Assembly: GCA_007694905.1 (NCBI GenBank)
Contig: REEU01000191.1
Location: 1-64,000, forward strand
Length of the DNA: 64,000 bases
From: Gammaproteobacteria bacterium
GTDB lineage: Bacteria; Pseudomonadota; Gammaproteobacteria; Pseudomonadales; Azotimanducaceae
Direction: 5' to 3'
Positions 40,417 to 56,121 of this stretch are shown here, one piece after another. The notes under the pieces were generated by a model. The model had not been told where the DNA came from. It did not search any database and worked only from the letters and a program-made list of their open reading frames with translations. Numbering within the stretch: position 1 is the first letter of the stretch; the number at the start of each line of letters is the position of its first letter. A program made the position numbers and the translations under genes.

Positions 40417-40684
40417 GCTGTTCCCCTTCACGCGAATCTCCCCGCGAAGTACGACCGTATGTCATTAGGTTTAGTCGACGATTGCGACTCCAACCGTGAT
40501 CGTGTTGGCATTTTGCGCAGAGGCAGACTGCCGAAGCTGTACTAGATTGAAAGACTGCAGGGCCGGGGTGTTGGTGCCGCTTCGAAGGCGCTGGATGGCG
40601 AAGAGCGTGTCCGGTTCAAGACGGCGATCACATGGTGAGCCCTTCGTGGGGCCGTGCAATGGCTTGGGTATGGGACGGGACAGG
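40417..40684. promoter_or_regulatory. divergent promoter region of the envelope redox genes
   Basis: The 268 bp between two divergent heme-protein genes likely hold both promoters. A TTAGGTTTAGTCGACGATTG stretch near 40465 is AT-richer than its surroundings. I could not define -35/-10 elements. Confidence 0.4.
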
Positions 40685-43327
40685 ATGATCGCAGAACCCA
40701 ATGACTTGCCGCGTCACGCCGAAGGGCGGGGGTGGCATTTCGCCTGCGTACTACTCCTGGGCCTCGTCGCATGTGGCGGTGATGGCGTCACGGTCTCCGG
40801 CGGTCAGAGTCAGGATCCGGTGGTCGTCGACGTCCCGATTGCCTACATCACACGGCCTGCGCCGATGGCGGCGGACATGGGTGCTGCGAGCGACGATGCG
40901 AGACAGCTGCTGCGGATCCAGCCCGGTGCGCAGTTATTCCTGCGCGAGCGCGCCTCGCCTTCCGCACGCGAGCGCAATCTCACGGACGAACTCGAGGAAG
41001 GGGACTACGACGTTCGCGACCTGAATGTCTCCTTCGACGGTCAGCGCTTCATCTTCGCCCTGCGGGGACCGTTGCTGCCTGACGCCGACGACGATGATCA
41101 ACCGTCCTGGAACCTCTGGGAATTCGACCGGGGTACGGACCAGCTGCGCCGCATCATCAGTTCCGACACCACCGCGGAAGCGGGTCACGACCGGACACCC
41201 GCCTACCTCCCGGACGGCCGTGTCGTGTTCTCATCCACCCGGCAACGCCAGGGCAAGGCCATCCTGCTTGATGAAGGCAAGCCCCAGTTCGATGCGCTGA
41301 ATGAGGAGCGACGTGAGTCGGCCTTCGTCCTGCACGTGATGAACGCGGACGGCAGCGACATCAATCAGATTTCCTTCAACCAGAGCCACGACCTGCACCC
41401 GGAGGTCATGGACAACGGTCAGATCGTATTCAGTCGCTGGGACAGGGCGAACGGCCGCAATGGCATTCATCTCTATCGCATGAACCCCGATGGCACGGAC
41501 CTCGAACTGTTTTATGGCGCCAACAGCCATCAGACCGGCACCGATGGAGCGACCGTCCAGTTCCTGCGACCCCGGCAGGCCGACGGTGCGCTGCTGACCC
41601 TGTTGCGACCCTTCGTGGCGGCGGATGCTGGTGCCGATCTCGTGCGCATCGACGTGGAGGGATTCGTCGAGAACGAACAGCCCATACCGTTCCAGCCAGG
41701 GGCCATGTTCGGTCCTGCGCAGACTCGCGCCACGATCAATGACGTACGCACCAACGGTGACATTTCCCCCGGGGGGCGGTTCACATCGGCGTGGCCGTTG
41801 CGGGACGGTAGCCGACGGATGTTCGTGACTTGGAGTCTGTGCCGTCTGCAGGGCGACGAAGGTGGCATCCTGCCCTGCACGGAAGAACGGCTCGCGGATC
41901 CTGATGCGATCCCGGCGCCACCTCTCTACGGACTTTATCTCTACGATGGCAGCACCGACACCCAGCTGCCGGTGCTGCAGCCCGTAGAAGGTGTCATGTA
42001 TACGGAAGTGGTGGCCGCCCAGATGCGCCCCCAGCCTCTGGTGCTGTTCGATCAGGTGGATTCCGGCCAGGCGGATCTGCTGCTTGCGGATGCCGACAGC
42101 GGCCTGCTCGCGATCCGCAGCGTCTACGACATCAATGGTGTGGACACGTCCGGGGCGGGTATCGCGACCCTGGCAGACCCGGCGGTTACGACCGCCGCAC
42201 AGCGCCCGGCCCGCTTCCTCCGGATCCTCAAGGCTGTCGCGTTGCCCGACGACGACGTCCGCGATTTCCGCAATACGGCCTTTGGTCGCGGCGGTGCCGG
42301 CAACGGCATGCGCGAGATCATCGGCTACACGCCCATCGAGCCGGATGGCTCCGTGATCGTTCAGGTGCCGGCGAATGTCCCGCTGGCAGTGGAGGTCCTC
42401 GACGGCCAGGGTCGACGGATCAGTGCACGCCATCGCAGCTGGCTGCAGGTCCGGCCAGGACAGACGCTGGCATGCGTCGGCTGCCACACGCCGAACAGCG
42501 GCCTGTCCCACGGACGCCGGGACGCGTTCGAAAGCGTTCATCCAGGTGCGGCCGCCACGGGTCAGCCCTATCCGAACACGCGCCCGGAACTGTTTGCCGA
42601 CTTCGGCGAGACCATGGCGGAGGTGCGCGCGCGGGTCAGCTGCGCGACGGATTGTTCCGCCCGGGTGCCGAGTGTCGACGTGGTGTTCGAGGACGTCTGG
42701 ACCGACGAGCAGAGTGCGGGGCGCGCGCCGGACGTGTCGTTCGCGTGGCGCTACGTCAATCTGCAGACGCCCATTCCTGTGGCTGGCGAATGTCTGCTGC
42801 AGTGGAACCCGCGCTGCCGCTCGGTGATCCACTATGAAGAGCACATTCATCCTCTGTGGGACCTCGATCGGCAGGTGATCGATCCCGAGGACGGCTTCAC
42901 GGTGCTGGCGGACAACACCTGCACGCTGTGCCACAGCCCGACGGACGACATGGGTGCCCTTCGGGTCCCGGAAGCCAATCTGGACCTCGCCGACGGTCTG
43001 TCGCCCCTGCAGGCCGACCACTTCAATGCGTATCGGGAACTGGTCTTTCCCCGCAATGAGCGGGAAGTCCTCGATGGGATTCTTCAGGATCGCCTGGTGG
43101 AAATCGGTATCGATGAAGACACCGGCGAGCCGATTCTCGCGACGGTTTCCATGCCGCCGCCGATGGCGGTAGGTCGGGCGCTGTCGGCGGGACGCTTCTT
43201 CGACCGTTTCGAACCGGACGGCAGTCACGCGGGTTGGCTCAGTGAAGCCGAGCTGCGGTTGCTGTCGGAGTGGATGGACCTCGGAACGCAGTACTACAAC
43301 GATCCGTTCGCGGCGCCGGAGGATTGA
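40685..43327 (+). CDS. di-heme lipoprotein, hydrazine synthase alpha-like
   Basis: From ATG 40685 the protein has 880 residues with a lipobox (LGLVAC, Cys30). Beta-propeller-type PD40 repeats follow (FVLHVMNADGSDINQISFNQ, then IHLYRMNPDGTDLELFYG). Two heme sites appear in the C-terminal half: CVGCHTPNSG and CTLCHSPTDD. The layout resembles the alpha subunit of hydrazine synthase (HZS_alpha family), but hydrazine chemistry is not implied; family members occur outside anammox bacteria with unknown roles. ATG 40670 and 40595 are alternative starts. The downstream barrel gene begins 2 nt after its stop. Confidence 0.75.
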   Translation: MIAEPNDLPRHAEGRGWHFACVLLLGLVACGGDGVTVSGGQSQDPVVVDVPIAYITRPAPMAADMGAASDDARQLLRIQPGAQLFLRERASPSARERNLTDELEEGDYDVRDLNVSFDGQRFIFALRGPLLPDADDDDQPSWNLWEFDRGTDQLRRIISSDTTAEAGHDRTPAYLPDGRVVFSSTRQRQGKAILLDEGKPQFDALNEERRESAFVLHVMNADGSDINQISFNQSHDLHPEVMDNGQIVFSRWDRANGRNGIHLYRMNPDGTDLELFYGANSHQTGTDGATVQFLRPRQADGALLTLLRPFVAADAGADLVRIDVEGFVENEQPIPFQPGAMFGPAQTRATINDVRTNGDISPGGRFTSAWPLRDGSRRMFVTWSLCRLQGDEGGILPCTEERLADPDAIPAPPLYGLYLYDGSTDTQLPVLQPVEGVMYTEVVAAQMRPQPLVLFDQVDSGQADLLLADADSGLLAIRSVYDINGVDTSGAGIATLADPAVTTAAQRPARFLRILKAVALPDDDVRDFRNTAFGRGGAGNGMREIIGYTPIEPDGSVIVQVPANVPLAVEVLDGQGRRISARHRSWLQVRPGQTLACVGCHTPNSGLSHGRRDAFESVHPGAAATGQPYPNTRPELFADFGETMAEVRARVSCATDCSARVPSVDVVFEDVWTDEQSAGRAPDVSFAWRYVNLQTPIPVAGECLLQWNPRCRSVIHYEEHIHPLWDLDRQVIDPEDGFTVLADNTCTLCHSPTDDMGALRVPEANLDLADGLSPLQADHFNAYRELVFPRNEREVLDGILQDRLVEIGIDEDTGEPILATVSMPPPMAVGRALSAGRFFDRFEPDGSHAGWLSEAELRLLSEWMDLGTQYYNDPFAAPED

Positions 43328-43329
43328 TC

Positions 43330-44070
43330 GTGCCCGGACGCGCTTTGATTCCCCTGGCACTCTGCTTCGGCCTGTTGCTGGCGCCGGGGGCACAGGCCGA
43401 TGGGTTCCGGGCCGCGGTGGCTGAGCCTTTCATGGAGATGCATACGGGGCCAGGTCGGGGCTATCCCGTGTTCCATGTGTTGGATCGAGGGGAACACTTC
43501 GAAATCCTGGCGCGCCGGACCGACTGGTTCAGAATTCGGGGGCCGCGGGAACGTGTGGGCTGGGTGAGCCTGACACAGATGCGTCTCGCGACGACCACCG
43601 ATGGTCAGCCTCTGGATCTGGGCGAACCGGGTTCCACCGACTACTTCGATCGGCGCTGGGAGTCCGGGGTGATGCTCGGGGACTTCAGCGGCGGCGACAT
43701 CATCTCGCTTTACGGCAGTTATCTGCTCACGCGCAACCTGTCGGTGGAGCTCACCGGCAACGCGATCACCGGCAGATTCTCCGACGCCTGGATGGTCAAT
43801 GCTCATCTGGTCCATCAGCCGTTCCCGGAGTGGCGGGTCTCGCCTTTCGTATCGCTGGGTACCGGTGTGATCTGGATTAAGCCCCAGGCCAGATTGGCTG
43901 AAGCCGAACGACGCACGGATCAGGTCGCGAGCGTAGGCCTCGGACTGCGCATGCACTTGACGCGACGCTTCATGCTGCGCGCCGAGTACAGGAGCCATCT
44001 GATCTTCACCGACCGCAACGAAAATGAGGCAGTGGACGAATGGAAAGCAGGCTTCGCATTCTTTTTCTGA
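43330..44070 (+). CDS. exported SH3-like plus outer-membrane beta-barrel protein
   Basis: The 246-residue protein from GTG 43330 has a signal peptide (to about GAQA), a bacterial SH3-like domain (about 28-85: MHTGPGRGYPVFHVLDRGEH, then DWFRIRGPRERVGWVSLTQM) and a C-terminal beta-barrel ending FAFFF. SH3 domains often bind peptidoglycan, so the protein may link the outer membrane to the wall. Its end overlaps the next gene by 31 nt, and it follows the heme lipoprotein gene by 2 nt, tying the two loci together. Confidence 0.75.
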   Translation: MPGRALIPLALCFGLLLAPGAQADGFRAAVAEPFMEMHTGPGRGYPVFHVLDRGEHFEILARRTDWFRIRGPRERVGWVSLTQMRLATTTDGQPLDLGEPGSTDYFDRRWESGVMLGDFSGGDIISLYGSYLLTRNLSVELTGNAITGRFSDAWMVNAHLVHQPFPEWRVSPFVSLGTGVIWIKPQARLAEAERRTDQVASVGLGLRMHLTRRFMLRAEYRSHLIFTDRNENEAVDEWKAGFAFFF

Positions 44071-44705
44071 AAGGCATGCTGCTCGTCGCGGTCCTCGCCG
44101 GAGCGACGGGATGCAGCTCGCTCGGACGCGAGGTGGCGGAGGACGATCGCGGACCAGTCGTGGATCCTACGGTGGACCGGCGTGAGATTCGGCAGCCGCG
44201 CATCGATACCGAGAATTTCGAAATCGGCGTGTACGGCGGCTTCGTCAGCGTCGAGGACTTCGGCAGCAATGCAGGCTATGGCGTACGCCTCGCCTATCAC
44301 ATCAGCGAGTCACTGTTTGCAGAAGTCATGGCGGGTCAGAGCGATGCCGGCAGAACCAGCTTCGAGAATCTCAGCGGTGGTGCACCGCTGCTCACGGATT
44401 CAGAGCGGCGCTTCCGCTACTACGACTTGTCGATCGGTTACAACGTACTTCCCGGAGAGGTGTTCTTGAGTCGCAACCGCGCCTTCAACTCGGCGCTGTA
44501 TGTGCTGCTCGGTGCCGGGAACACCGAATTCGGGGGAGAGAACCTGTTCACCGTGAGTTTCGGCGCCGGTTATCGGGTCCTGCTGACCGATTGGCTCGCT
44601 GCTCATTTCCTCGTCCGTGATCGTATGTTTTCTACTGACCTGTTGGGTGACGACAAGATTGCGCACAACGTCGAATTCAGCCTGGGCCTGAGCTGGTTCT
44701 TCTGA
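44040..44705 (+). CDS. outer-membrane beta-barrel domain protein (myxobacterial-type)
   Basis: The 221-residue protein has a lipoprotein-like signal (LAGATGC, Cys25) followed by an eight-strand-type barrel: GVYGGFVSVEDFGSNAGYGV, a central YDLSIGYNVLPGEVFLS, and a terminal LGLSWFF. It fits the outer-membrane barrel family found beside AgmX/gliding-type genes in myxobacteria and gammaproteobacteria. Having both a lipobox and a barrel is odd. It overlaps the preceding SH3-barrel gene by 31 nt. Confidence 0.75.
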   Translation: MESRLRILFLKGMLLVAVLAGATGCSSLGREVAEDDRGPVVDPTVDRREIRQPRIDTENFEIGVYGGFVSVEDFGSNAGYGVRLAYHISESLFAEVMAGQSDAGRTSFENLSGGAPLLTDSERRFRYYDLSIGYNVLPGEVFLSRNRAFNSALYVLLGAGNTEFGGENLFTVSFGAGYRVLLTDWLAAHFLVRDRMFSTDLLGDDKIAHNVEFSLGLSWFF

Positions 44706-44740: not shown

Positions 44741-45241
44741 ATGATCAAGCATGCATGGCTACTGCTTGCTGCCGCGCTGTTCGCCGTGGCGGCGCAGGCT
44801 GGAGGGCCGAAGGTCGGCTCTCCCGCGCCTGACTTCACGCTGGAGAGCCGGTCTGGAGGAACGGTTGCGCTTAGCGATCTGAAGGGCGAAGTGGTGCTGC
44901 TCAACTTCTGGGCGACCTGGTGTCCGCCCTGCAGGCAGGAGATGCCGCTGCTGGACCAGATCTACGGACGCTATGAGGCGCTGGGTTTCACCCTGCTCGG
45001 TGTGAACGTGGAACAGGACAGCAACCTCGCGGATCGTTTCCTCGCGGATGTCCCGGTGAGTTTCCCCATCCTGCTGGATCCGCAGGAGCAGGTCAGCAAG
45101 CTGTATCAGGTTCCGGCCATGCCCACCACGGTGATCATCGATCGCCAGGGCATCGTTCGCTACATTCATTACGGGTTCCGGCCGGGTGACGAGCAGAAGG
45201 TTCAGGACGAGGTCAGGCGCCTGATCAGGGAACGATCATGA
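44741..45241 (+). CDS. TlpA-family periplasmic thioredoxin
   Basis: The 166-residue protein has a signal peptide (to AAQA) and a thioredoxin fold with active site FWATWCPPCRQEMP and cis-Pro in PAMPTTVIID. It is a membrane- or periplasm-located disulfide reductase of the TlpA/ResA kind. GAGGAG upstream supports the start. It overlaps the DUF4266 gene as ATGA, and may keep that protein's cysteines or heme-motif cysteines reduced. Confidence 0.92.
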   Translation: MIKHAWLLLAAALFAVAAQAGGPKVGSPAPDFTLESRSGGTVALSDLKGEVVLLNFWATWCPPCRQEMPLLDQIYGRYEALGFTLLGVNVEQDSNLADRFLADVPVSFPILLDPQEQVSKLYQVPAMPTTVIIDRQGIVRYIHYGFRPGDEQKVQDEVRRLIRERS

Positions 45242-45465
45242 GCCGGCAGAAACTGCTCGCCGTCGCCGCTGCAGCGCTGCTCATGGGTGGATGCGCGAGT
45301 GTCGATCCCTGGGTGAAGCCCTACGAGCGGGACCGTCTCGCCGATCCGATCATGAGCTTCGAGCGCGACCCCGTCATCGCCTCCCATCGTCGCCACGTGT
45401 TCGACGTACGGGAAGCTGCGCGCGGTGCCGCCGGCGGCTCTGGTGGCGGGTGCGGGTGCAACTGA
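45238..45465 (+). CDS. DUF4266 lipoprotein with Cys-rich tail
   Basis: The 75-residue protein has a lipobox (LMGGC, Cys19), then the DUF4266 core VDPWVKPYERDRLADPIMSF and HVFDVREAARGAAGGS, ending in a Gly-rich GGGCGCN tail with two cysteines. The tail suggests metal binding or a thiol switch. DUF4266 genes are typically found with DUF3570, TlpA and ApbE genes, as here. It overlaps the tlpA-like gene by 4 nt and leads into the DUF3570 gene one base after its stop. Function unknown. Confidence 0.85.
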   Translation: MSRQKLLAVAAAALLMGGCASVDPWVKPYERDRLADPIMSFERDPVIASHRRHVFDVREAARGAAGGSGGGCGCN

Positions 45466-45466
45466 C

Positions 45467-46615
45467 ATGATGCTCCGGTCTTACAAGGGTGCTGTGGTTG
45501 CGATCGTGCTGGCCCTGGCGCTGCTGACGCCGACGCTGTCTGCACAGGTTCTTCCTGATGACCGGCTGGATCTTCTGTATCACTTCTACGAGGGTGGCGG
45601 GATGACCATCCAGGGGCCGTCACTGCTGGCACGCAAGCAGATCGGCTCCAGCGTCTCGGTCTCTGCGAGTTACACGGTGGACTCCATCAGCGGCGCGTCC
45701 ATCGACGTGGTGACCACGGCCAGTCCTTACACGGAGAAGCGTACGGAGATCAGCGCCGGCGTGGACTATCTCCGCGGCAGCACTCTGCTGGGCTTCACCT
45801 ACACCAACAGCGACGAAAAGGATTACACCGCCAACACCTTCGGCGTCAGTGTCAGCCAGGAGATTTTCGGCGGCATGACGACGGTCAGCATGGGTTATGT
45901 CCGCGGCTTCGATGAGGTGGGACGCAGCGACAACCCTGACTTCTCTGCGGACGTCGATCGTCATGCGTGGCGTCTCGGTCTGACGCAGGTTCTGACCCGT
46001 AATCTCATTGCGGAGGTTGCGTTCGAGACGATCAGCGATGAGGGTTTTCTGAACCTTCCCTATCGCCAGGTGCGTTTCCTCGATCCGGATTCCGCCACCG
46101 GATTTTCCTGGGAGCCTGAGGTCTATCCGAACACCCGGACGAGCAATGCCATCGCGCTGCGCAGTCGGTTGCATCTGCCATTCCGCGCGGCCCTGCAGAC
46201 GGACTACCGCTACTACGCGGACAGCTGGGACATCGATGCCCACACTGCGGAGATCGGCTACACCCATGGCGTGCTGGATCGATGGACCCTCGACGTGGGC
46301 TATCGCTACTACCGCCAGAGCGGCGCGGAGTTCTTCTCCGATCTGTTTCCGTTCCGGGAGTCCCAGAACTTCCGTGGCCGTTGGAAGGAGATCAGCGCCT
46401 TCGACAGCCATGCGTTCCGGGTGGGCGTGAATTACGAGTTCATGGCAGAGCGTCGCGGCTTTTTGGAACGCAGTGCCGTAGGGCTTTCCTTCGAGCGGAT
46501 CCTCTATGACTACCGCGACTTCCGTGACGTCCGCATCGATGCTGATCCCGGTGAAGAGCCGACCTACAGCTTCGAAGCGAACGTGATCCAGTTCATGTTG
46601 TCGGTGTGGTTCTGA
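45467..46615 (+). CDS. DUF3570 outer-membrane barrel with flavinylation motif
   Basis: The 382-residue protein from ATG 45467 has a signal peptide (to about LSAQ) and an alternating beta-strand body ending FMLSVWF, typical of an outer-membrane barrel. Residues 72-78 read DSISGAS, matching the D-x-x-(S/T)-G-A-(S/T) motif to which ApbE enzymes attach FMN, with Ser78 the predicted acceptor. An apbE gene follows 10 nt downstream. If modified, this is an outer-membrane flavoprotein. The motif is visible; its flavinylation is inference. Confidence 0.8.
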   Translation: MMLRSYKGAVVAIVLALALLTPTLSAQVLPDDRLDLLYHFYEGGGMTIQGPSLLARKQIGSSVSVSASYTVDSISGASIDVVTTASPYTEKRTEISAGVDYLRGSTLLGFTYTNSDEKDYTANTFGVSVSQEIFGGMTTVSMGYVRGFDEVGRSDNPDFSADVDRHAWRLGLTQVLTRNLIAEVAFETISDEGFLNLPYRQVRFLDPDSATGFSWEPEVYPNTRTSNAIALRSRLHLPFRAALQTDYRYYADSWDIDAHTAEIGYTHGVLDRWTLDVGYRYYRQSGAEFFSDLFPFRESQNFRGRWKEISAFDSHAFRVGVNYEFMAERRGFLERSAVGLSFERILYDYRDFRDVRIDADPGEEPTYSFEANVIQFMLSVWF

Positions 46616-46625
46616 TGAGGGCGGC

Positions 46626-47618
46626 GTGAGCGGGTCACCGCAGAGGGCGAATGTCTGGCAGGGTCTGGCCCTGTGCGCACTGCTGCTCGCCTCGGGATTC
46701 GTGAGTGCCGCCTGGCACGGCGACGAGCAGGCCAAGATGGGCACACGCATCGTGGTTCAGCTCTGGCATCCCGATGCCGAAGAGGGCAAACGGCTGGTCG
46801 CTGCGGCCATGGCCGAGTTCGATCGTATCGAAGCGCTCATGAGCACCTACCGCGAGGACTCTGAGATCTCGCGGGTCAATCGTTACGCAGCCGAGCGGCC
46901 GATTCCCGTCTCCGAGGAGCTCTACGACATCGTCCGGCAGTCCATCGCGATGTCGCGCCTCACTCAGGGCGCCTTCGACATCACCTACGAGAGCGTCGGC
47001 TACCTGTATGCGTTCCGGGAGCGGCAGGCGCCGACGGATGCACAGGTGGATGCTCGACTCGACGCCATCGACTACCACCACCTGCTGCTGGATCCCGAAG
47101 CCCGCAGCATCGCCTTCGCGATGGAGGGCGTGCGCATCAATCTCGGCGGAATCGGCAAGGGTTATGCGTGTGATCGAGCCGTCGATCTCATTCGGCAGGC
47201 AGGTGTGGAGCATGCGCTCGTCAGTGCCGGCGGCGACACGCGCCTGCTGGGCGACCGCCGGGGGCAACCCTGGGTCGTCGGTATTCGCGATCCCGATGAC
47301 GCGGACGCCGTGGTGACCCGACTCGCCCTGGTGGACGAAGCCATTTCCACCTCGGGCGACTACGAGCGCTATTTCGAAGACGACGGCGTGCGTTATCACC
47401 ACATTCTCGACCCCGCGACAGGTCGGCCCTCCGAGGGAGTCCGCAGCGTCACCATCATAGGTCCCGACGGCACCCGAACGGATGCGCTGTCGACCAGCGT
47501 CTTCGTCATGGGCGCGGACGCCGGGCTCGAACTCATCGAGCGGCTTCCGGACTACGAAGCCATCGTCATCGACAGCACGCGCGGCGTTCGGGTGTCCGGA
47601 GGACTTGCACCGCCGTAG
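46626..47618 (+). CDS. apbE: ApbE FAD:protein FMN transferase
   Basis: The 330-residue exported protein (signal to about VSAAW) has the ApbE hallmarks: KMGTRIVVQLW, MSTYREDSEISRVNR, INLGGIGKGYACDRAVDLIR, VSAGGDTRLLGDR, and HHILDPATGRPSEGVRSVT with the metal-binding TDALSTSVFVMG. It transfers FMN from FAD to Ser/Thr of a target in the periplasm. The start is a GTG at 46626. Its obvious substrate candidate is the DUF3570 barrel encoded just upstream. Confidence 0.93.
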   Translation: MSGSPQRANVWQGLALCALLLASGFVSAAWHGDEQAKMGTRIVVQLWHPDAEEGKRLVAAAMAEFDRIEALMSTYREDSEISRVNRYAAERPIPVSEELYDIVRQSIAMSRLTQGAFDITYESVGYLYAFRERQAPTDAQVDARLDAIDYHHLLLDPEARSIAFAMEGVRINLGGIGKGYACDRAVDLIRQAGVEHALVSAGGDTRLLGDRRGQPWVVGIRDPDDADAVVTRLALVDEAISTSGDYERYFEDDGVRYHHILDPATGRPSEGVRSVTIIGPDGTRTDALSTSVFVMGADAGLELIERLPDYEAIVIDSTRGVRVSGGLAPP

Positions 47619-47693: not shown

Positions 47694-47743
47694 GAATGAG
47701 AGGCCGGCAGCGTGCCGGCGCCACGCCGCAAGGACAGGTTCGA

Positions 47744-48226
47744 ATGGCCTCCGAGGCTTGCAGAAAAGGGCTCGGCCTCTTGCTGATGCTCGCCGCCATC
47801 GCAGGCGGGGCCGCTCCGCCTGCGCCGGATTTTGCCCTGCGATCCGCAGACGGGCACAACGTGCGCCTGTCCGAGTTCCGCGGCCAGGTCCTCGTCGTCG
47901 CGTTCTGGTCATCCCGCTGTGCGGACTGCGATCGGCATGTCGAGCACCTCGATGCGCTGACCCAGCGCCTGTATGAAAGGGGCGTACGTCTGCTGGTCGT
48001 GAGCATCGATCGTGAACCGAACGCAGCCCGGGAGCGGGCTGCTCGACTGCAGGCACCGATACTGTTGGACATGGAGCGCGAGGTTGCGCGCCTCTACGAC
48101 ATCGGGCGTCTACCGGTGGTCCACTTCGTCGACTACCACGGACGCTTGCGGGACGTCGAAGCGACGACTAACGGGCGGGAGCTGACGCGGTACGAACCCA
48201 CCCTGCTGGCCCTTCTGGACGAGTGA
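47744..48226 (+). CDS. exported thioredoxin-like (AhpC/TSA-Redoxin) protein
   Basis: The 160-residue protein from ATG 47744 (AAGGACAGG upstream) has a signal peptide (to about GGAAP) and a TlpA/redoxin-type fold: VLVVAFWSSRCADCDRHVEH with a CxxC (CADC), and cis-Pro in GRLPVVHFVD. It likely acts on disulfides in the periplasm and is a second redox partner of this locus, distinct from the WCPPC protein. It is the first gene after the internal CRP-type promoter. Confidence 0.85.
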   Translation: MASEACRKGLGLLLMLAAIAGGAAPPAPDFALRSADGHNVRLSEFRGQVLVVAFWSSRCADCDRHVEHLDALTQRLYERGVRLLVVSIDREPNAARERAARLQAPILLDMEREVARLYDIGRLPVVHFVDYHGRLRDVEATTNGRELTRYEPTLLALLDE

Positions 48227-48236
48227 GCACAGACCC

Positions 48237-48752
48237 ATGGACATGAAACGATTGCTGATGGCCGTGTTGCTCGCGGCGTCGCTGGGCGCCGGGCCCCTGG
48301 CCGCAGAGCAAAGCCTGGACACCCGCATGCAGGATCTCAGGCAGGAGATCCTGCACTTGAACCGGGAGTTGTTCATGTTGGAAGAGGATCTGCTCTTTCC
48401 GGCCAACACCCAGGTCGCCGTGTTCCTGTCCATGGACGTGGGCGAGTTCTTTGCGCTGGACTCGGTGGAGCTGAAACTCAACGATCGCGTGGTCAAGCGT
48501 TATCTCTACACGCCGCGCGAAGTCGAAGCCTTGCTTCGTGGGGGTGTGCAGCAGCTTTACCTCGGCAACCTGCGCAGCGGTTCCCATGAACTCGTTGCCG
48601 TATTCACCGGTAAGGGGCCTCATGATCGCGACTACCGTCGGGCAACCAGCCTGAACTTCGAGAAGGGCATTGGTGCCCAGTTCGTCGAGCTGAAGATTTC
48701 CGATCGCGTCAGCCGGCAGCAGCCCGAGTTCCTGGTCCGGGAGTGGGATTAG
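48237..48752 (+). CDS. exported protein of the AgmX/ExbBD cluster, unknown family
   Basis: The 171-residue protein has a signal peptide (to about GPLAAEQ), a short coiled-coil-like helix (RMQDLRQEILHLNRELFMLE) and a beta-rich domain (VAVFLSMDVGEFFALDSVEL, then GNLRSGSHELVAVFTGKG). I do not recognise it. It starts 10 nt after the thioredoxin-like gene and is followed 4 nt later by the TPR gene. The helix may mediate oligomerisation. An ATG at 48243 is an alternative start. Confidence 0.65.
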   Translation: MDMKRLLMAVLLAASLGAGPLAAEQSLDTRMQDLRQEILHLNRELFMLEEDLLFPANTQVAVFLSMDVGEFFALDSVELKLNDRVVKRYLYTPREVEALLRGGVQQLYLGNLRSGSHELVAVFTGKGPHDRDYRRATSLNFEKGIGAQFVELKISDRVSRQQPEFLVREWD

Positions 48753-48756
48753 TCCC

Positions 48757-50631
48757 GTGACACCACGCTTGCGCTGCTTCCTTGCCATGGTCGTCACTGC
48801 TTCAGCCTTGATGCAGGCAACCGCCTGGGCTCAGGAACTGGCGGCGGGAGAAGTGCGGGACCTGCATTTCGGCGAAGCACTGTTTCATTTCTATCAGGAT
48901 GACTATTTCACCTCCCTGAGCAGGCTGCTCATGGCGCAGGAGGCGGGTCGCATCGTTCATCATCGTGACGATGCGGAGCTGCTCGCCGGTGGCTTGTACC
49001 TGCAGTTCGGCATGTACGACGAGGCGGAGCGTGCGTTCCGGAAACTGTTGGATGAACGCAGTGATCCGGCGCTTCACGATCGCGTGTGGTTCCAGCTCGG
49101 TCGCGCACATTATCGGCAGGGCAAGCACGAGGCCGCCCTGAGGGCGCTGCAGCGGGTCGAGGGCCGTCTGGCCGGCTACGCGGCGGCCGAGCTGCCACTG
49201 TTGAAGGCTCAGAGCAGCATGGCACTGGGACGTTACGCATCGGCCGCAGCGCTGCTGGAGAACTGGCAGGGTCCGGCGGACTGGTTGCCCTTCATGCGTT
49301 ACAACCTGGGTGTAGCGTTGATTCGCAGCGGTGACGAGAACGCAGGGATCGCACAGCTGGAAGCGCTGGGGCGGACGCCGGCCCGCGACGAGGAAGACAA
49401 GGCGCTTCGCGACCGTGCCAACCTGGCGCTTGGCTATACCTGGCTGCAGCAATCCGAGCCCGGGCGCGCGCTGGACGCATTACAACGGGTTCGTCTCGAG
49501 GGTGCGAGTGCCAACCGTGCGCTGTTGGGCGTGGGTTGGGCCCGGACAGCGATGGACGACCATGCAGGTGCGCTGGTGCCATGGCAGGCCCTGTGGACGC
49601 GGGACCGGCTCGATGGCGCCGTGCAGGAGTCGCTGCTTGCGGTCCCTTACGCGCTTGCGCGCCTGGACGAGGATCAGCAAGCGGTGCACGCCTACGAGCG
49701 TGCGCTGGCAGCCTTTGACGACGAGATCCGCCACCTCGACGAGGTCATGAACGCTGCGAAGGCGGGGGAACTGGTCGACGCGTTGCTTCTGGCGGACGAC
49801 TCTGAGCGTGCCCGCTGGCACTGGCAGCTCGACGAGCTCCCTGTATCACCAGAGTCGCGCTATCTCCATGCGCTGATTGCGAGTCATGGTTTTCAACAGG
49901 GGCTGGGACACTATCGCGATCTGCTGGCGCTCGGTCGGCATCTCGACGAGTGGCACGAGCGCCTCGAGACCTTCGGTCATATGGTCGAGGCACAGATGCT
50001 CGCTGCACAGCAGCGCGCGCCGGTGATCGATGCCCGTATCGATGCGATTGACGTCGAATCATTGATCGCGCGTCGTGACGAGCTTGCCGCTCGGATCGAG
50101 GACATCGCGCGGGAGCGTGATGTGGTCGGCCTCGGCAACGACGAGGAGCTCGAGTTCTGGAACCTGCTCGAGGAGCTGGAATCCGGTCCGGCGCTTGCCG
50201 CCGCTCCGGAAGAGGCGCGTGAACGTCATCGTCTGCTGCGGGGACATCTGCTGTGGCAGATGGATCGAGACTACTCTTATCGCATTTGGCAGCAGCAACG
50301 AGCCCTCACCGAACTCGACGGGCATCTGGAAGAAGTCGCACCCCGGCTGCAGCGTGTCATGGAGATTCGCGCTGCGCGGCCGCAGGAACTCGAGGCGTTG
50401 GCCGAGCGCATCGATGCACTCAGTCCGCGCATCGATGTGCTCAGGGACCAGGTCGCGCTGCTGCGGACGGAGCAGGGGGCGGTGTTGCACGCCATGGCGA
50501 TGAACTGGCTCGAGGCGCAGCAGCAACGTCTGGTGGCCTATCAGGTCCAGGCGCGCTTTGCCCTGGCGACGCTGTATGACCGGGCTGCGACCGCGGCCCG
50601 GCCATCCCCGGTTGTGGAGCCGGGCTCATGA
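48757..50631 (+). CDS. exported TPR-repeat protein
   Basis: The 624-residue protein has a signal peptide (to about TAWAQE) and at least six TPR-like units in the first 350 residues (GEALFHFYQDDYFTSLSRLL, YLQFGMYDEAERAFRKLL, VWFQLGRAHYRQGKHEAALR). A long helical C-terminal half follows, with a coiled-coil-like stretch near 430-570. It is likely a periplasmic scaffold around the ExbBD/TonB-like motor. The GTG start at 48757 lies 4 nt after the previous stop; it overlaps the next gene by ATGA. Confidence 0.8.
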   Translation: MTPRLRCFLAMVVTASALMQATAWAQELAAGEVRDLHFGEALFHFYQDDYFTSLSRLLMAQEAGRIVHHRDDAELLAGGLYLQFGMYDEAERAFRKLLDERSDPALHDRVWFQLGRAHYRQGKHEAALRALQRVEGRLAGYAAAELPLLKAQSSMALGRYASAAALLENWQGPADWLPFMRYNLGVALIRSGDENAGIAQLEALGRTPARDEEDKALRDRANLALGYTWLQQSEPGRALDALQRVRLEGASANRALLGVGWARTAMDDHAGALVPWQALWTRDRLDGAVQESLLAVPYALARLDEDQQAVHAYERALAAFDDEIRHLDEVMNAAKAGELVDALLLADDSERARWHWQLDELPVSPESRYLHALIASHGFQQGLGHYRDLLALGRHLDEWHERLETFGHMVEAQMLAAQQRAPVIDARIDAIDVESLIARRDELAARIEDIARERDVVGLGNDEELEFWNLLEELESGPALAAAPEEARERHRLLRGHLLWQMDRDYSYRIWQQQRALTELDGHLEEVAPRLQRVMEIRAARPQELEALAERIDALSPRIDVLRDQVALLRTEQGAVLHAMAMNWLEAQQQRLVAYQVQARFALATLYDRAATAARPSPVVEPGS

Positions 50632-53447
50632 GCACGGGTGCGGCGACACTGACGTTGGTGATGTTTTCCAGCTTCTGGCCCTTCGGAGACCGGGAAGCTG
50701 ACCGGTCGACTGATCCGACCATTGCCACTCTGGATGCCGGTCCCGTGGCCGTCCGGGAGCTGCAGGTGGGGGCAGCACCGCCGCTCGAGGCGGATACGGG
50801 GCGCGCGATGCAGCAGTACCGCGCATTGCTGGAGTTGGACGCGGTGCCCGATGCCATGCGCCTGCAGGCGCTGCGCCGACTGGCGGATCTGGAACTGCAG
50901 ACCGGTCTGGCGCTACAGGCGGACATGACCGACGAGGTGGCGGCCAGGCGCTACATCGAAGCTGCGGTGGCCGGCTACAGTGAGCTGCTGGCCAACTGGC
51001 CGGGGCTTCAGGAAACGGATCGCCTGCTCTACCAGCGTGCCCGTGCGCAGGACGCGCTGGGTGATACCGAAGCGGCGCTGGCCGGGCTGGACCTTCTGGT
51101 GCAGGCGCATCCCGCGAGCCCCTACGCGGCAGAAGCGCAGTTCCGGCGCGGTGAGCGGCTGTTCGTTGAGGGGCGTCATCTGGAAGCGGAAGACGCGTAC
51201 GCAGCGGTACTCGCGCATCCCCAAGGCAGCCCGTTCCGCGACCAAGCGCTCTACAAGCTCGGTTGGACGCGTTACCGGCTTGGGGAATATCAGTCTGGAG
51301 TCGAGCCCTTCATGGCCCTGCTCGATTTCCGTTTCGGCGCTGACGCGGATCCCGATCTCGATGGCTTGAGCCGTGCAGAACGGGAACTCTACGAGGACAC
51401 GCTGCGGGTGCTCGCCCTCGGATTCTCGTATGTCGATGGACCCGCCGCCATCGATGCAGTGATGGCGGAGCAGGGCGACCGGAACTGGTCCCACCTGCTG
51501 TATGCATCGCTGGGACAGCTGTATCTCGTTCAGGAACGCTACCGGGACGCGGCTTCGGCGTTCGGTGCCTTCGTCGACGGCCGCGTGAACCACGTCCGCG
51601 CGCCTGGATTTCAACAGGCCGTGATCGACGCCTATACCCAAGGCCGTTTTCCGTCGCTGGTGCTCGACGCCAAGGAGGACTACGTCGTCCGTTATGGCCT
51701 TGACGCCGACTTCTGGCGGCAGCGTGACACTGACGATCACGCCGAGGTGCTCGATCTGCTGCATCTGCATCTCGCTGATCTGGCGGAGCACGACCACGCG
51801 CTGGCGCAGGACAGCGGCGAGTGGGCGGATCAGGCCCGCGCGGTGAACTGGTATCGCAAGCTGCTGGCCTGGTTTCCTGAGGATCCGCGTGCCGGCCAGC
51901 ACAGCTTCCTGCTCGCGGAGCTGTTGCTGGAAGCGCAGCGCTTCGAGGAAGCCACTGCGGCCTATCTGGCGTCCGCTTACGATCACGGTGACCATGCCGA
52001 TGCTGCAGAAGCCGGCTATGCGGCGTTGCTGGCCGCACGACGACACGAAGCGTCGCTCGAGAACGACGCGCGCACTTCGTGGCAGGCCGACCTCGCCGAG
52101 TGGTCGCTGCGTTTCGCGGTGACCTTCCCGGATCACCCCGAGGCTGTTCCGGTGCTGACGGTGCTGGCCGAAGAGCGCTTCGCTGCGGGTGAGTTTCTGG
52201 AAGCAATCTCCGTCGCCGAGCGGGTCGTGCAACACCAGCCGCCTGCAGACGCAGCGGCGGCAACCACCGCATGGACGGTGATTGCCCATGCCCAGTTTGA
52301 TCTCGGGCACTACCACGAAGCTGAGCAGGCCTATCGCCTGCTGCAGGGCAGAGAGCTGCCCGCGGAACGCTTCGATGCCTTCACAGACCGCATCGTCGCT
52401 GCCGTCTTCAGGCAGGGTGAGCAGGCGCGGGCTGCCGGTGAGGTCGATGCAGCCGTGCACCATTTCGTCCGCCTCGGCGTCGAGGTTCCTGATGCACCGG
52501 AGGCGGGCAATGCGCTCTACGACGCCGGCGCACTGCTTTACGCGCATGAGCGCTGGACCGAAGCCGCACCGCTGCTCGAGCGCTTCCGTGATGCCTATCC
52601 GCGGCACGCGCTGGCCCTCGATGCGACCCGCCTGCTTGCGACGGCGCTGCGGGAGGATGCCCAGCTCGCGGCTGCCGCGCGGGAGTTCGAACGCGTGTCC
52701 TCAGCTGACGTGCTCGAGTCCGATCTGCGGCGTGAGTCGCTGTGGGAGGCTGCTGACCTCTATCAGCAGGCCGGGCAGGCGTCGCAGCGCCGCCGGGTCC
52801 TCGTCGAGATCGTCGATCGCTTTCCCCGGCCGGTCGCACAAGCGCTGGAGGCGCGACATCAGCTCGCGGAACTGGCGCGGGAGTCGGATGACGCCGGTGA
52901 GCGTCGCCGCTGGCTCGAGGCCATCGTCGCTGTGGATCGTGAGCTCGGTGCCGCCCGCACCGATCGCAGCCGTTATCTAGCGGCGCACGCCAGCCTGGAA
53001 CTCGCAGAACCGCTCCGGGACAGGTTCATGGACGTGCGCCTCGCCGCGCCGCTCCGGGACAGTCTCCGGCGCAAGCGCGAGCGCATGGAAGCGGCACTGG
53101 CCGCCTATGGTGAAGCGGCTGAGTATGGCGTGACCGCAGTCGTGACCGCGGCCACCTGGCAGATCGCGGAACTCTACTACCAGCTTGCCCGCGACCTGAT
53201 GGAGTCGGAGCGACCATCCGGACTCGCGGACGACGCACTCGAGCAGTACGAGATTCTGCTCGAGGAGCAGGCCTTTCCATTCGAGGAGCAGGCACTGGAC
53301 ATCTTCCTGACCAATGCCGCGCGCGTAGTCGACGGCGTTTACGACGAGTGGGTCAAGGCGAGCTTCGAGCGGCTGGCCAGCATTTCCCCTGGGCGTTACG
53401 CCCGCATCGAACGGAGGGATCTCCTTGCGATCCGGTTCCATGATTAG
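50628..53447 (+). CDS. very large TPR-repeat protein
   Basis: The 939-residue protein is built almost wholly of TPR and TPR-like helical pairs: YAAEAQFRRGERLFVEGRHL, LYKLGWTRYRLGEYQSGVEP, LYASLGQLYLVQERYRDAAS, and more to the end. The N-terminus has a weak hydrophobic segment (ATLTLVMFSSFWPFGD), so export is plausible but not certain. The ATGA overlap with the preceding TPR gene fixes the start. Proteins of this type form large protein-binding solenoids; its place in the motor locus suggests a periplasmic scaffold. The end overlaps the next gene by 23 nt. Confidence 0.8.
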   Translation: MSTGAATLTLVMFSSFWPFGDREADRSTDPTIATLDAGPVAVRELQVGAAPPLEADTGRAMQQYRALLELDAVPDAMRLQALRRLADLELQTGLALQADMTDEVAARRYIEAAVAGYSELLANWPGLQETDRLLYQRARAQDALGDTEAALAGLDLLVQAHPASPYAAEAQFRRGERLFVEGRHLEAEDAYAAVLAHPQGSPFRDQALYKLGWTRYRLGEYQSGVEPFMALLDFRFGADADPDLDGLSRAERELYEDTLRVLALGFSYVDGPAAIDAVMAEQGDRNWSHLLYASLGQLYLVQERYRDAASAFGAFVDGRVNHVRAPGFQQAVIDAYTQGRFPSLVLDAKEDYVVRYGLDADFWRQRDTDDHAEVLDLLHLHLADLAEHDHALAQDSGEWADQARAVNWYRKLLAWFPEDPRAGQHSFLLAELLLEAQRFEEATAAYLASAYDHGDHADAAEAGYAALLAARRHEASLENDARTSWQADLAEWSLRFAVTFPDHPEAVPVLTVLAEERFAAGEFLEAISVAERVVQHQPPADAAAATTAWTVIAHAQFDLGHYHEAEQAYRLLQGRELPAERFDAFTDRIVAAVFRQGEQARAAGEVDAAVHHFVRLGVEVPDAPEAGNALYDAGALLYAHERWTEAAPLLERFRDAYPRHALALDATRLLATALREDAQLAAAAREFERVSSADVLESDLRRESLWEAADLYQQAGQASQRRRVLVEIVDRFPRPVAQALEARHQLAELARESDDAGERRRWLEAIVAVDRELGAARTDRSRYLAAHASLELAEPLRDRFMDVRLAAPLRDSLRRKRERMEAALAAYGEAAEYGVTAVVTAATWQIAELYYQLARDLMESERPSGLADDALEQYEILLEEQAFPFEEQALDIFLTNAARVVDGVYDEWVKASFERLASISPGRYARIERRDLLAIRFHD

Positions 53448-54087
53448 TGCGTGGGGTGACGCCGTCAGTCGGCTGGTCCGCTTCAGCTGCGCCTGCCTGT
53501 GCGCAGCCCTGCTCATCGGCTGCGCCACGTCCGGCGATCGTGCGGAGCGTTCCGGTTCGGCACTGGAGCAGGTGCCGGCGTCGGTCCTCGATCGCTATGC
53601 GGATGGTGTGGCTGCGCTGGAGGCGGGCCATGTGGCCCGTGCCACAGCGACGTTCGAAGTCCTCGCGCGCGAGTATCCGCAGTACTCCGGTCCGCTGCGG
53701 CAGCTCGCGTGGCTGGCCGTCGACGATGGTGACGATGCGGCGGCAATGGACTATCTGCTGCGCGCGCTCGAAGTGTGTGAGGCCTGCGCGCCCGTGCTGA
53801 CGGATCTCGGTGTGCTGCATCGGCAGCACGGAGAGTTCGATGCCGCAGAGCAGGCCTACCGCGACGCGCTTGCGGCGGATCGCGACTACGCGCCGGCCCA
53901 TTTCAATCTGGCGGTGCTGTTCGAGCTGTACCGGATGCGTCCGCGTCCAGCCATCGAGCATTACGAACACTACCTTGAACTTGCAGAGGATGACCCCGAC
54001 GCTCGCCTGATCCGCGCCTGGGTGGCGGACCTGGAGCGGCAGGCGGCGAACCTTTCGAGTACTGCACAGATCGAGGCGAGACCATGA
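53425..54087 (+). CDS. TPR lipoprotein
   Basis: The 220-residue protein has a lipoprotein signal (lipobox LLIGC near residue 33) and about four TPR units (GVAALEAGHVARATATFEVL, GVLHRQHGEFDAAEQAYRDA, FNLAVLFELYRMRPRPAIEH). GGAGG lies 8 nt before a TTG at 53425, which is taken as start; an ATG at 53440 is the alternative. It ends 4 nt into the next ATG. The anchor suggests a link between the envelope membrane and the TPR scaffold. Confidence 0.75.
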   Translation: MRSGSMISAWGDAVSRLVRFSCACLCAALLIGCATSGDRAERSGSALEQVPASVLDRYADGVAALEAGHVARATATFEVLAREYPQYSGPLRQLAWLAVDDGDDAAAMDYLLRALEVCEACAPVLTDLGVLHRQHGEFDAAEQAYRDALAADRDYAPAHFNLAVLFELYRMRPRPAIEHYEHYLELAEDDPDARLIRAWVADLERQAANLSSTAQIEARP

Positions 54088-54407
54088 CGGGATCACGGAC
54101 GGCTGCATGGATGATGGTTCTGTTCCTGTCCGGAGGCGCAGGCGCTGAGCCGGCGCACCGGCTGGAACTCGATCGCAGTGCGATCCGGGGCAATCAGGAA
54201 CTGCCGCGGGTCATGGTGATTCTGCCCTGGAAGGATCCGGGCATGGCAGAGCTGGCCGGACGTCCTTTCAACAGCCTGATCGAGGAGGTGCTCTCGCCGG
54301 TGGATCGGGACGAGTTCCGGCGTGAGTTGAATTATTTCGAACAACTGCAGGCCGCCGGGCCTGGAGCAGGTGCTTCCGCAAACAGCGAGGAGGTCAGTGG
54401 ACCATGA
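54084..54407 (+). CDS. small exported protein, unknown family
   Basis: The 107-residue protein has a signal peptide (MVLFLSGGAGAE cleavage region) and a short mature domain with GNQELPRVMVILPWKDPGMA and a charged helix (VDRDEFRRELNYFEQLQA). I do not recognise it. It is tightly coupled: it overlaps the TPR lipoprotein gene upstream and the ExbB gene downstream by ATGA, implying stoichiometric production with the motor. Confidence 0.7.
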   Translation: MTGSRTAAWMMVLFLSGGAGAEPAHRLELDRSAIRGNQELPRVMVILPWKDPGMAELAGRPFNSLIEEVLSPVDRDEFRRELNYFEQLQAAGPGAGASANSEEVSGP

Positions 54408-55075
54408 ACATCTACGCGGGAATCGTCGGGTTCTTCCAGAGCGGCGGGGTCTTCATGTACCCGATCGTCGTCGTGCTGGCGCTCGGCCTTGCCATCGCCA
54501 TCGAGCGCTGGCTGTTTCTGGCCCGAACCAGCATGCGCAACCGGAGTCTCTGGAACGAGATCACGCCCTACATTCAGCAGGGTCGCTTCAATGAGGCGGC
54601 CACCCTCACCAGTGAGGCGAAGTCGTCCATCGGTACGATTCTGAACTACGGGCTGGCGCGCATCCGCACGGCAGGCCGTCGCGACGACATCGAGCGGGCG
54701 ATGGAAGAAAGCATGATGGAGGTGACGCCTCATCTCGAGAAGCGCACCCACTATCTGGCCACGTTCGCCAACATCGCGACGCTGCTCGGACTGCTCGGCA
54801 CCATCATCGGTCTGATCCGCGCCTTCACGGCGGTCGCCGGTGCGAACCCGGCCGAGAAAGCGGATCTGCTGTCGGCAAGCATCTCCGTAGCCATGAACAC
54901 CACCGCGTTCGGCCTGATGGTGGCGATTCCGCTGCTGCTCATGCATGCCCTGCTGCAGACAAAGACCACCGAGATCATTGACAGTCTGGAGATGGTGTCC
55001 GTGAAGTTCCTCAATGCGGTAGACGATCGTCGGCCCAAGCAGGCATCGCCGACCCGTCAGCAAAGCCCGGCATGA
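54404..55075 (+). CDS. exbB: MotA/TolQ/ExbB proton-channel protein
   Basis: The 223-residue protein has three transmembrane helices: residues 15-38 (VFMYPIVVVLALGLAIAIER), and a pair in the second half (ATFANIATLLGLLGTIIGLI, and AMNTTAFGLMVAIPLLLMHA), with the family's conserved Thr and Pro-rich pattern. It should surround ExbD-type helices and use the proton gradient to drive the periplasmic machinery. It is 4 nt overlapped by the previous gene and overlaps the first exbD by 4 nt. Confidence 0.93.
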   Translation: MNIYAGIVGFFQSGGVFMYPIVVVLALGLAIAIERWLFLARTSMRNRSLWNEITPYIQQGRFNEAATLTSEAKSSIGTILNYGLARIRTAGRRDDIERAMEESMMEVTPHLEKRTHYLATFANIATLLGLLGTIIGLIRAFTAVAGANPAEKADLLSASISVAMNTTAFGLMVAIPLLLMHALLQTKTTEIIDSLEMVSVKFLNAVDDRRPKQASPTRQQSPA

Positions 55076-55578
55076 GACGGCGGCGGAGCAAGGCGCGGCG
55101 ACAGGAGCAGCAGGAGCTCGACATTACCGCGTTCCTGAATCTGATGGTGATCCTGGTGCCGTTCCTGCTGATCACGGCCGTGTTCTCCCGGCTGGCGATC
55201 ATCGAGCTCAGCGTGCCGACCTCTGCCGACGGTGGTGAAGCCGTGGAAGAGTCCCTGCAGCTCGAGGTCATCGTTCGCGGTGACGCCATCGAGATCGGGG
55301 GCCGTGACGCCGGGCTGTTGACGGTGCTGCCGCGGGACGAGGAGGCCGGCTACGACTTTGCCGGCCTGAATACCTATCTGCAGCGCATCAAGGCGGAGGA
55401 CCCGGATCGGACCGTTGCCACGGTGCTGCTGGAACCGGACGTGAACTACGACGTCCTGGTGCAGGTCATGGATGCCGTGCGGCTTTACGAGGCCGAGGCC
55501 GGAGGCGCCATGGTGCAGGCGGAATTGTTTCCGGACATCGCCGTCGGCGACGCGCCGGCAAGGACCCAGGGGGGCTGA
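55072..55578 (+). CDS. exbD: ExbD/TolR-type protein lacking the channel Asp
   Basis: The 168-residue protein has a basic N-terminus, one transmembrane helix (LDITAFLNLMVILVPFLLIT) and a periplasmic domain. In ExbD/TolR the helix carries an essential Asp (ITPFIDVMLVLLIIF); here the equivalent position is Asn23. This subunit may therefore not carry protons itself, and may pair with the second ExbD, which keeps the Asp. It overlaps the ExbB gene by 4 nt. Confidence 0.85.
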   Translation: MRRRRSKARRQEQQELDITAFLNLMVILVPFLLITAVFSRLAIIELSVPTSADGGEAVEESLQLEVIVRGDAIEIGGRDAGLLTVLPRDEEAGYDFAGLNTYLQRIKAEDPDRTVATVLLEPDVNYDVLVQVMDAVRLYEAEAGGAMVQAELFPDIAVGDAPARTQGG

Positions 55579-55581: not shown

Positions 55582-56121
55582 ATGCGCATGTCGCGCCGGG
55601 CCAAGCGGATGGAGCGCCACCACAAGCGCGGGCGCCGCGGGTCATTGAACATCGTGTCGCTCATGGACATCTTCACGATCCTGGTGTTCTTCCTGCTGGT
55701 GAGTTCCACCGAGGTGGAAGTGCTGCCGAATCCGCGCGATCTCACGCTGCCGGAGTCCGTTGCCGAGGAAGGCGCCAGGGAAACCGTGCTGATTACGGTA
55801 ACGGCCCAGCACATCCTCGTTCAGGGCCAGGTGGTTGCCGATGTGCATGAGGTGCTGGCGCGGGATGCGACGTTGATTCCCGAGCTCGGGGCCGCGTTGC
55901 GCGCACAGACTGACCGTGTCCTGCGGCGCGACGCAGTCACTGACGCGGCCGACCGCGAGGTGACGATCATGGGCGACAAGGGCCTGCCGTTCAGCCTGCT
56001 GCGCCAGGTGATGGCGACCTGCACCGATGCGGAGTACGGAAGGATTTCGCTGGCCGTGTCCCAGCGCGGTCTGGCGGCTGCTGACCATCCACCCCCTGCC
56101 ATCGGGCAGCCGGCCGGCTAG
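55582..56121 (+). CDS. exbD: ExbD/TolR-type protein with intact channel Asp
   Basis: The 179-residue protein has a strongly basic N-terminus and a transmembrane helix (LNIVSLMDIFTILVFFLLVS) with Asp29 at the proton-carrying position. The periplasmic domain is larger than in classical ExbD and includes ETVLITVTAQHILVQGQVVA. It follows the Asn-type ExbD by 3 nt, implying a mixed ExbD pair in one motor. Confidence 0.88.
   Translation: MRMSRRAKRMERHHKRGRRGSLNIVSLMDIFTILVFFLLVSSTEVEVLPNPRDLTLPESVAEEGARETVLITVTAQHILVQGQVVADVHEVLARDATLIPELGAALRAQTDRVLRRDAVTDAADREVTIMGDKGLPFSLLRQVMATCTDAEYGRISLAVSQRGLAAADHPPPAIGQPAG

Follow-up and report, generated by a model that had tools for sequence, protein, structure and literature searches.

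Genes of the locus

The window analysed here is a stretch of 64,000 nucleotides (nt), positions 1 to 64,000 of contig REEU01000191.1 from the gammaproteobacterial assembly GCA_007694905.1. A run of genes on the + strand between about 40.5 and 57.1 kb surrounds a gene for a DUF3570 protein, which is followed by a gene for an exported ApbE flavin transferase. We consider it probable that this DUF3570 protein is a flavinylated redox barrel of the outer membrane, tied to a proton-driven machine of the cell envelope. The reading is built on the genes of the run, an acceptor motif, its conservation, co-occurrence across genomes and genetic linkage. The run comprises the following features (TPR, tetratricopeptide repeat; FMN, flavin mononucleotide; pLDDT, predicted local distance difference test; pTM, predicted template modelling score).

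40496..43327, + strand: HZS_alpha-domain/PD40 protein with two CxxCH haem motifs, CVGCH and CTLCH (PF18582, E 4.2e-18)
43270..44070, + strand: protein with SH3 and outer-membrane barrel domains (PF08239, 28.7 bits, cut-off 27; OMP_b-brl below its cut-off)
44040..44705, + strand: outer-membrane beta-barrel domain protein of OMP_myx_plus type (TIGR04565, 165.8 bits, cut-off 60)
44741..45241, + strand: TlpA/ResA-like thioredoxin 1, CPPC (PF00578, AhpC-TSA, 4.4e-33; ResA model 122.6 bits, below its cut-off of 170)
45238..45465, + strand: DUF4266 small exported (lipo)protein with the C-terminus GGGCGCN (PF14086, 80.3 bits, E 1.9e-22)
45467..46615, + strand: DUF3570 protein, predicted 16-strand outer-membrane barrel and proposed ApbE substrate (PF12094, 130.4 bits; AlphaFold pLDDT 93.1, pTM 0.86)
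45680..45700, + strand: site 1, DSISGAS, residues 72–78, with Ser78 as proposed FMN acceptor
45704..45724, + strand: site 2, DVVTTAS, residues 80–86, motif-like and in the same loop as site 1, with no Gly in the window
46626..47618, + strand: exported ApbE flavin transferase of the dedicated clade, GTG start (PF02424, 295.6 bits, E 4.8e-88)
47696..48226, + strand: TlpA-like thioredoxin 2, CADC (PF00578, 8.1e-21)
48237..48752, + strand: HYP48237, exported helix plus beta-sandwich protein, marker of the machine set (no Pfam match; AlphaFold pLDDT only 69.8)
48757..50631, + strand: TPR protein 1 (TPR models)
50628..53447, + strand: TPR protein 2 with YbgF-like repeats (TIGR02795, 103.2 bits, cut-off 90.1)
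53425..54087, + strand: TPR protein 3, GltE-like (NF033758 GltE, 39.2 bits, below its cut-off of 225)
54404..55075, + strand: MotA/TolQ/ExbB-family proton channel protein (PF01618, 6.9e-29)
55072..55578, + strand: ExbD/TolR-family protein 1 (PF02472, 8.1e-15)
55582..56121, + strand: ExbD/TolR-family protein 2 (PF02472, 2.5e-15)
56133..57104, + strand: TonB-like protein with AgmX/PglI C-terminal domain, GltG-like (NF033768, 66.8 bits, cut-off 40; GltG 38.8 bits, below 650)

In the genus of the window two half-clusters are joined at the junction of DUF3570 and apbE, and in many relatives they are separate.

Acceptor motif of the DUF3570 protein

The DUF3570 open reading frame extends from an ATG at 45467 to a stop at 46615 and encodes 382 residues; its score against PF12094 compares with a gathering cut-off of 25 bits. 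The initial annotation had read DSISGAS at residues 72–78, with an exported ApbE 10 nt downstream and a TlpA thioredoxin and a DUF4266 lipoprotein upstream, and these statements are borne out. The translated frame carries the heptapeptide at these residues, the GTG at 46626 begins 10 nt after the DUF3570 stop (signal peptide judged by eye), and the genes at 44741–45241 and 45238–45465 precede DUF3570. DSISGAS matches the pattern D-x-x-[ST]-G-A-[ST] of ApbE substrates. The window protein has one [ST]GA[ST] site, SGAS at residues 75–78, and its second site reads TTAS. The strict pattern is rare: including the DUF3570 site it occurs twice in 66,472 residues (window in six frames, stop to stop, at least 100 residues), its chance expectation is about 0.01 per 382-residue protein, and a scan of the 15 other cluster proteins of the window did not turn it up. 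A chance coincidence of motif and apbE was considered and rejected on their co-occurrence across genomes.

Predicted barrel and position of the motif loop

The AlphaFold model of DUF3570, calculated with 54 homologues from named genomes as input, shows 16 antiparallel strands forming a barrel (mean pLDDT 93.1) with a C-terminal Phe. It matches outer-membrane barrels of the PDB with Z scores of 15–22, the highest being 21.9; BamA, PelB, 4y25, CymA, BcsC and OmpG are matched at 17–22. With antiparallel strands, a C-terminal aromatic residue and this fold match, DUF3570 is confidently predicted to be an outer-membrane-type barrel; the matches speak to its fold, not to its function.

PelB, BcsC and 4y25, a polysaccharide porin that we take to be PgaA, are among the best fold matches (Z 18–21). 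They bring up the idea of a polysaccharide or polymer exporter, in which a 16-strand porin with TPR partners as in PgaA, PelB or BcsC is driven by ExbB/ExbD and the flavin has a minor or regulatory part. The Myxococcus Agl-Nfs system, which reportedly rotates a carbohydrate polymer on the surface of spores (PMC3858216), points the same way. However, CymA, OmpG and BamA reach similar scores, so that the match shows a shared barrel only, and a scan of the 16 cluster proteins gave no match to a family of polysaccharide synthesis. Moreover, two thioredoxins, a C-x-C protein and a two-haem protein indicate redox chemistry. We regard export as quite improbable.

Strand 3 of the model ends at residue 50 of the mature protein, and residues 51–61 form the following loop. 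Both candidate acceptors are in this loop, Ser78 at mature residue 52 and Ser86 at mature residue 60. Burial of the motif in a barrel strand, which the initial annotation had named as a finding that would speak against flavinylation, is thus not what the model shows. Barrels of this sort usually have both ends in the periplasm. With both termini placed there, strand parity puts the motif loop on the extracellular side, the orientation we predict. The motif loop is the best conserved of all loops longer than four residues; its mean conservation is 0.90, compared with 0.57–0.78 for the other such loops on that side. Given this location, ApbE would have to act in the periplasm before the barrel is inserted into the membrane.

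Conservation of the motif

In an alignment of 16 sequences, the window included, Asp72, Ala77 and Ser78 are invariant and Gly76 is present in five. Over 55 aligned rows Asp72 and Ala77 remain invariant and Ser78 is kept in 98%. In 80 named loci, site 1 reads SSAS in 67, TSAS in 7, TSAT in 1 and SGAS in 4, with one locus (L115) uncovered; all 79 readable homologues retain Asp72, Ala77 and Ser or Thr at 78. Site 2 is conserved as well, with Asp80, Ala85 and Ser86 invariant in 55 aligned sequences and the GA[ST] form in 7 of the 79. The motif counts over families, like the DUF4266 tail counts given further below, leave out the duplicate loci L001 and L032–L051, and a genome may recur as a named and an unnamed locus.

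Conservation of the strict motif, which the initial annotation had named as a test, fails in the subfamily: position 76 is Ser in 75 of the 79 readable named homologues. Aliikangiella coralliicola M105 (L136) is a cultured representative of the subfamily. Joint occurrence of motif and apbE holds better in 30 more distant DUF3570 loci, where 26 have [ST]GA[ST], the remaining four read [ST]GSS, and ApbE is found within 1.5 kb flanks in 21. Three loci (L002, L012, L024) have far longer DUF3570 frames (904–920 residues between stops), in which the site reads D-T-W-S-G-A-T.

The frequent Ser at position 76 is what one would expect if the D-x-x-[ST]-S/G-A-S loop were structural or ligand-binding, if the Gly in the genus of the window gave it the likeness of an ApbE site by chance, and if the dedicated ApbE described below modified another protein. 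We consider this unlikely. According to a review (PMC12052999), flavinylation of another ApbE target still reached about half its level after a Gly-to-Ala exchange, so that, by analogy, Ser in place of Gly may be tolerated by ApbE. Outside DUF3570, the strict motif turns up in at most one frame per cluster family, and a DUF3570 protein is a proven ApbE substrate elsewhere (PMC8238504). The relatives with Ser for Gly offer a natural experiment on the stringency of ApbE recognition.

A dedicated ApbE pairs with DUF3570

Of 38 relatives, 22 match DUF3570 of one subfamily or another, and every one of these has at least two ApbE matches; 15 of the 16 genomes without DUF3570 have at most one, the exception (G377) having two. 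Certain second ApbE matches in these relatives are fragments or contain stops (G372, G389). In G389 both the DUF3570 fragment and ApbE contain a TAG in frame, and TlpA is matched in fragments (L068, L082), which reflects either joint decay or poor assembly.

Across a class sample of 369 genomes, 56 with the DUF3570 subfamily and 313 others, 40 of the 56 carry the dedicated ApbE, compared with 2 of the 313. The cut-offs for these comparisons (dedicated ApbE above 290 bits, A1-type at E ≤ 1e-70, HYP48237 at E ≤ 1e-34) were picked after the lists had been viewed. ApbE scoring covered at most five candidates per genome and may have missed an ApbE in genomes with more, which among the 16 subfamily genomes without a dedicated match are G017, G301 and G334. 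All p values are rough because the lineages are not independent.

The dedicated ApbE often sits at a second locus, away from DUF3570. Accordingly, co-occurrence in the form of an adjacent apbE does not hold for the subfamily: only 14 of the 70 named loci whose downstream sequence extends to 1.6 kb or more have apbE within 1.5 kb 3' of DUF3570. Proximity is related to the motif, as apbE is within this distance at 6 of 10 loci with GA[ST] at either site versus 8 of 60 without (p 0.003).

Motif and dedicated ApbE could be compared in 55 of the 56 subfamily genomes (G076 is unreadable; G186 was read at site 2 only and G264 at neither site). Among the 40 with a dedicated ApbE, GA[ST] occurs at site 1 in nine and at site 2 in seven, and the xGS form in four; 20 have no Gly form at either site. 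Among the 15 without, one has GA[ST] at site 1 (G340, 71% complete) and 14 have none. The association of Gly form and dedicated ApbE has a p value of 0.022, or 0.005 without G340. Loss of both the Asp and the acceptor is seen in 3 of 15 genomes without a dedicated ApbE (G017, G056, G193, two of which share one genus) versus 0 of 38 with one (p 0.019). That all three motif-less genes are in genomes without the dedicated ApbE argues against a purely structural or ligand-binding loop. Such a role is favoured by the other 12 of these 15 genomes, which retain D..[ST][SG]A[ST]; there a different ApbE may serve the loop, or its conservation may have some other cause. The statement that the motif tracks apbE perfectly was rejected on evidence of this kind.

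At 13 second loci (L072–L084) the ApbE shares 44–52% identity with the window ApbE, compared with 28–39% for other ApbEs. HYP48237 follows downstream in 11 of them (L072–L080, L083, L084), mostly together with TPR, ExbB and ExbD genes up to the contig end. At L082 the ApbE gene is accompanied by a TlpA frame that looks broken. The genomes of two of the 13 loci lack a strong match to DUF3570: G377 has none at all, and the match in G388 has E 1.2e-6. Another ApbE substrate encoded between apbE and tlpA in the split clusters was looked for and rejected, since inspection by eye of the short frames in ten such gaps revealed no shared gene. In the gaps of L072, L073, L075 and L084 (0.5–0.7 kb), short chance frames share peptide fragments across genera, a hint that a non-coding stretch may be conserved there. 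No Rfam family reached its gathering score in the window, L072, L074, L075, L084 or L089.

The genome of the window has four FMN_bind matches, likely ApbE substrates, and its apbE could in principle be a general flavin transferase for Nqr/Rnf-type proteins whose position next to DUF3570 is coincidental. We judge this highly improbable. The genome has a second ApbE elsewhere, and relatives without DUF3570 manage with at most one, G377 excepted. Window-type ApbEs form one group that heads the machine half-cluster in relatives, in a midpoint-rooted tree where support for the joining branch is only 0.64 and the long-branch L094 lies at the root.

Linkage to the TPR/ExbB/ExbD/AgmX gene set

The class-wide co-occurrence of the machine was followed through HYP48237 alone, rather than through the TPR, ExbB and ExbD genes. 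A HYP48237 homologue of any strength is present in 56 of 56 subfamily genomes versus 27 of 313 others, and at E ≤ 1e-34 in 56 of 56 versus 2 of 313. Given the relatives in 27 genomes without the subfamily, the machine is not restricted to it. HYP48237 is on the DUF3570 contig in 45 of the 55 subfamily genomes compared and within 1 kb in 27 of the 55; this count leaves out G076, where the two genes are on different contigs and which would count as a miss. This linkage suggests that the barrel module and the machine set work together.

The site-less DUF3570 genes also lie near HYP48237, at 23 nt in G056 (L234), 47 nt in G193 (L235) and 3.4 kb in G017 (L231), so that the barrel seems to be retained there without its flavin site. 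Clusters of the gammaproteobacterial type also occur on contigs labelled Rhodospirillales, Phycisphaerae and Rhodospirillaceae (L142, L162, L178, L187), which are either mis-binned or the result of transfer.

Proposed mechanism

We infer from the sequences that the DUF3570 protein of the window is flavinylated by its ApbE. A dedicated periplasmic ApbE would attach FMN to Ser78 within the well-conserved loop that follows strand 3, before DUF3570 folds into the membrane. At the outer membrane the flavin could relay electrons, in either direction, between the operon's thiol carriers (the TlpA-like proteins as well as DUF4266 with its CxC) and the HZS_alpha-like protein, a two-haem partner at the surface or in the periplasm. 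This route is a proposal. The barrel module would be coupled to the ExbB/ExbD/AgmX-tail/TPR machine, driven by the proton-motive force; power source and coupling are suggested by the protein families, and the genetic link is observed.

Several findings weigh against this reading. The side of the loop is derived from strand parity, and the pLDDT of residues 51–60 is only 64. The motif Gly is mostly replaced by Ser in the subfamily, and half of the genomes with a dedicated ApbE have no Gly form (G264 being unread). The dedicated match is missing in 16 of 56 subfamily genomes, most of those that could be compared retain the loop, and apbE is seldom adjacent. Thresholds were set post hoc and related genomes are not independent. 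G403 (L081) has a dedicated-type ApbE with 9 kb downstream devoid of a machine gene, and G377 holds ApbE and HYP48237 with no DUF3570 match. Finally, no inner-membrane electron donor is recognised in the cluster: DsbD (PF02683) is absent from it, and the only DsbD match of the genome is on contig C21, not on C132. We nevertheless favour the flavinylated, machine-coupled barrel as the probable reading.

Further features of the locus

The HZS_alpha/PD40 protein is probably a lipoprotein, and its true start is probably 3' of the annotated GTG. Two CxxCH motifs are present in 86 of 95 homologous frames longer than 700 residues (certain genomes represented twice), and the gene lies 5' of DUF3570 in many relatives. 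The start of the SH3/barrel gene, which overlaps the HZS_alpha frame, is uncertain. The DUF4266 tail contains C-x-C in 160 of 160 loci and GGGCGCN in 148 (certain genomes counted twice).

Directly 5' of the cluster, divergent genes on the – strand occupy 36695–40431. They encode a Laminin_G_3 protein with weak cytochrome-type matches (36695–39202) and a protein with weak DUF1585/DUF1588/DUF1549 matches and one CxxCH (39226–40431). Further away, also on the – strand, is a methyltransferase domain protein (33614–34987) with a weak C-terminal PqqD-like match below cut-off.

Comparison with known systems

NqrC and RnfG, FMN_bind substrates of ApbE, are linked to the inner membrane. They share the D-x-x-[ST]-G-A-[ST] acceptor motif with the DUF3570 protein of the window, whereas the DUF3570 site is in the loop of a predicted outer-membrane barrel. 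The export porins PgaA, PelB and BcsC resemble it in barrel fold and in TPR proteins nearby, but identity is only 7–13% in the aligned parts, which does not show a shared function.

A closely related system has been described in Chlorobium luteolum, whose DUF3570 protein receives its flavin from the cognate ApbE and loses flavinylation only when both Ser sites are changed to Ala (Meheust et al. 2021, eLife, PMC8238504). The initial annotation had proposed an outer-membrane flavoprotein, a location outside the classical cases for covalent flavin. With a predicted barrel, an ApbE-type site and a dedicated ApbE this was right in kind, and in view of C. luteolum it is not new; a 2024 paper lists the outer membrane as one place where flavinylated domains occur (PMC11334425). 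The 2021 paper describes clusters of ApbE, DUF3570, a thioredoxin-like protein and DUF4266, with or without DsbD (316 without), finds VIT1 in 25 clusters (iron uptake), and calls the function of DUF3570 uncertain. It does not spell out the membrane location of DUF3570: its text has no 'barrel', and 'outer membrane' occurs once, of siderophore transporters.

The window shares with C. luteolum the Pfam family, the ApbE partner, DUF4266 with a terminal C-x-C and a thioredoxin-like neighbour, and contains all four members of the cluster. It differs in three respects. C. luteolum has two [ST]GA[ST] sites, the window has SGAS plus the Gly-less TTAS, and the subfamily mostly has Ser for Gly. The thioredoxin named for the published cluster is PF13899, whereas those of the window match AhpC-TSA/Redoxin, with no PF13899 match. 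The window cluster also has no DsbD. A role in iron uptake was considered and given little weight, as VIT1 was not matched by any of the 16 cluster proteins scanned. New here are the barrel model, the predicted extracellular side of the motif loop, the rarity of the strict motif in the subfamily, the pairing with a dedicated ApbE and the link to HYP48237.

The machine half resembles the Agl-Glt core by gene content. In that system gltC, gltD and gltE encode TPR proteins and aglR, aglQ and aglS proteins of ExbB/ExbD types. A 'core complex' of Gammaproteobacteria, made up of clustered gltC/D/E/G and aglR/Q/S homologues and one extra gene, was described with its function left unknown in non-gliding bacteria (Luciano et al. 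2011, PMC3169522). The window combines, in one cluster, three TPR proteins, one AgmX-tail protein, one ExbB/TolQ-type and two ExbD-type proteins, together with HYP48237. As the GltE and GltG matches stay below the NCBIfam equivalog cut-offs (39.2 of 225 and 38.8 of 650 bits), we do not assign it as a gliding machine. Its ApbE and thioredoxin neighbours also set it apart, since 'ApbE', 'flavin' and 'thioredoxin' do not occur in the text of PMC3169522. Among the matches listed in one library, no title or abstract opening ties an Agl-Glt-like core to DUF3570 or ApbE. It is possible, if doubtful, that one form of this core is the proton-motive-force-driven engine of a DUF3570 flavin/haem redox system that carries its flavin on the outer face and is served by ApbEs with a relaxed motif, Ser for Gly. 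The predicted extracellular-side flavin loop and the near one-to-one link to the motor-set marker would give both systems a testable job, outer-membrane electron transfer coupled to a proton-driven machine.

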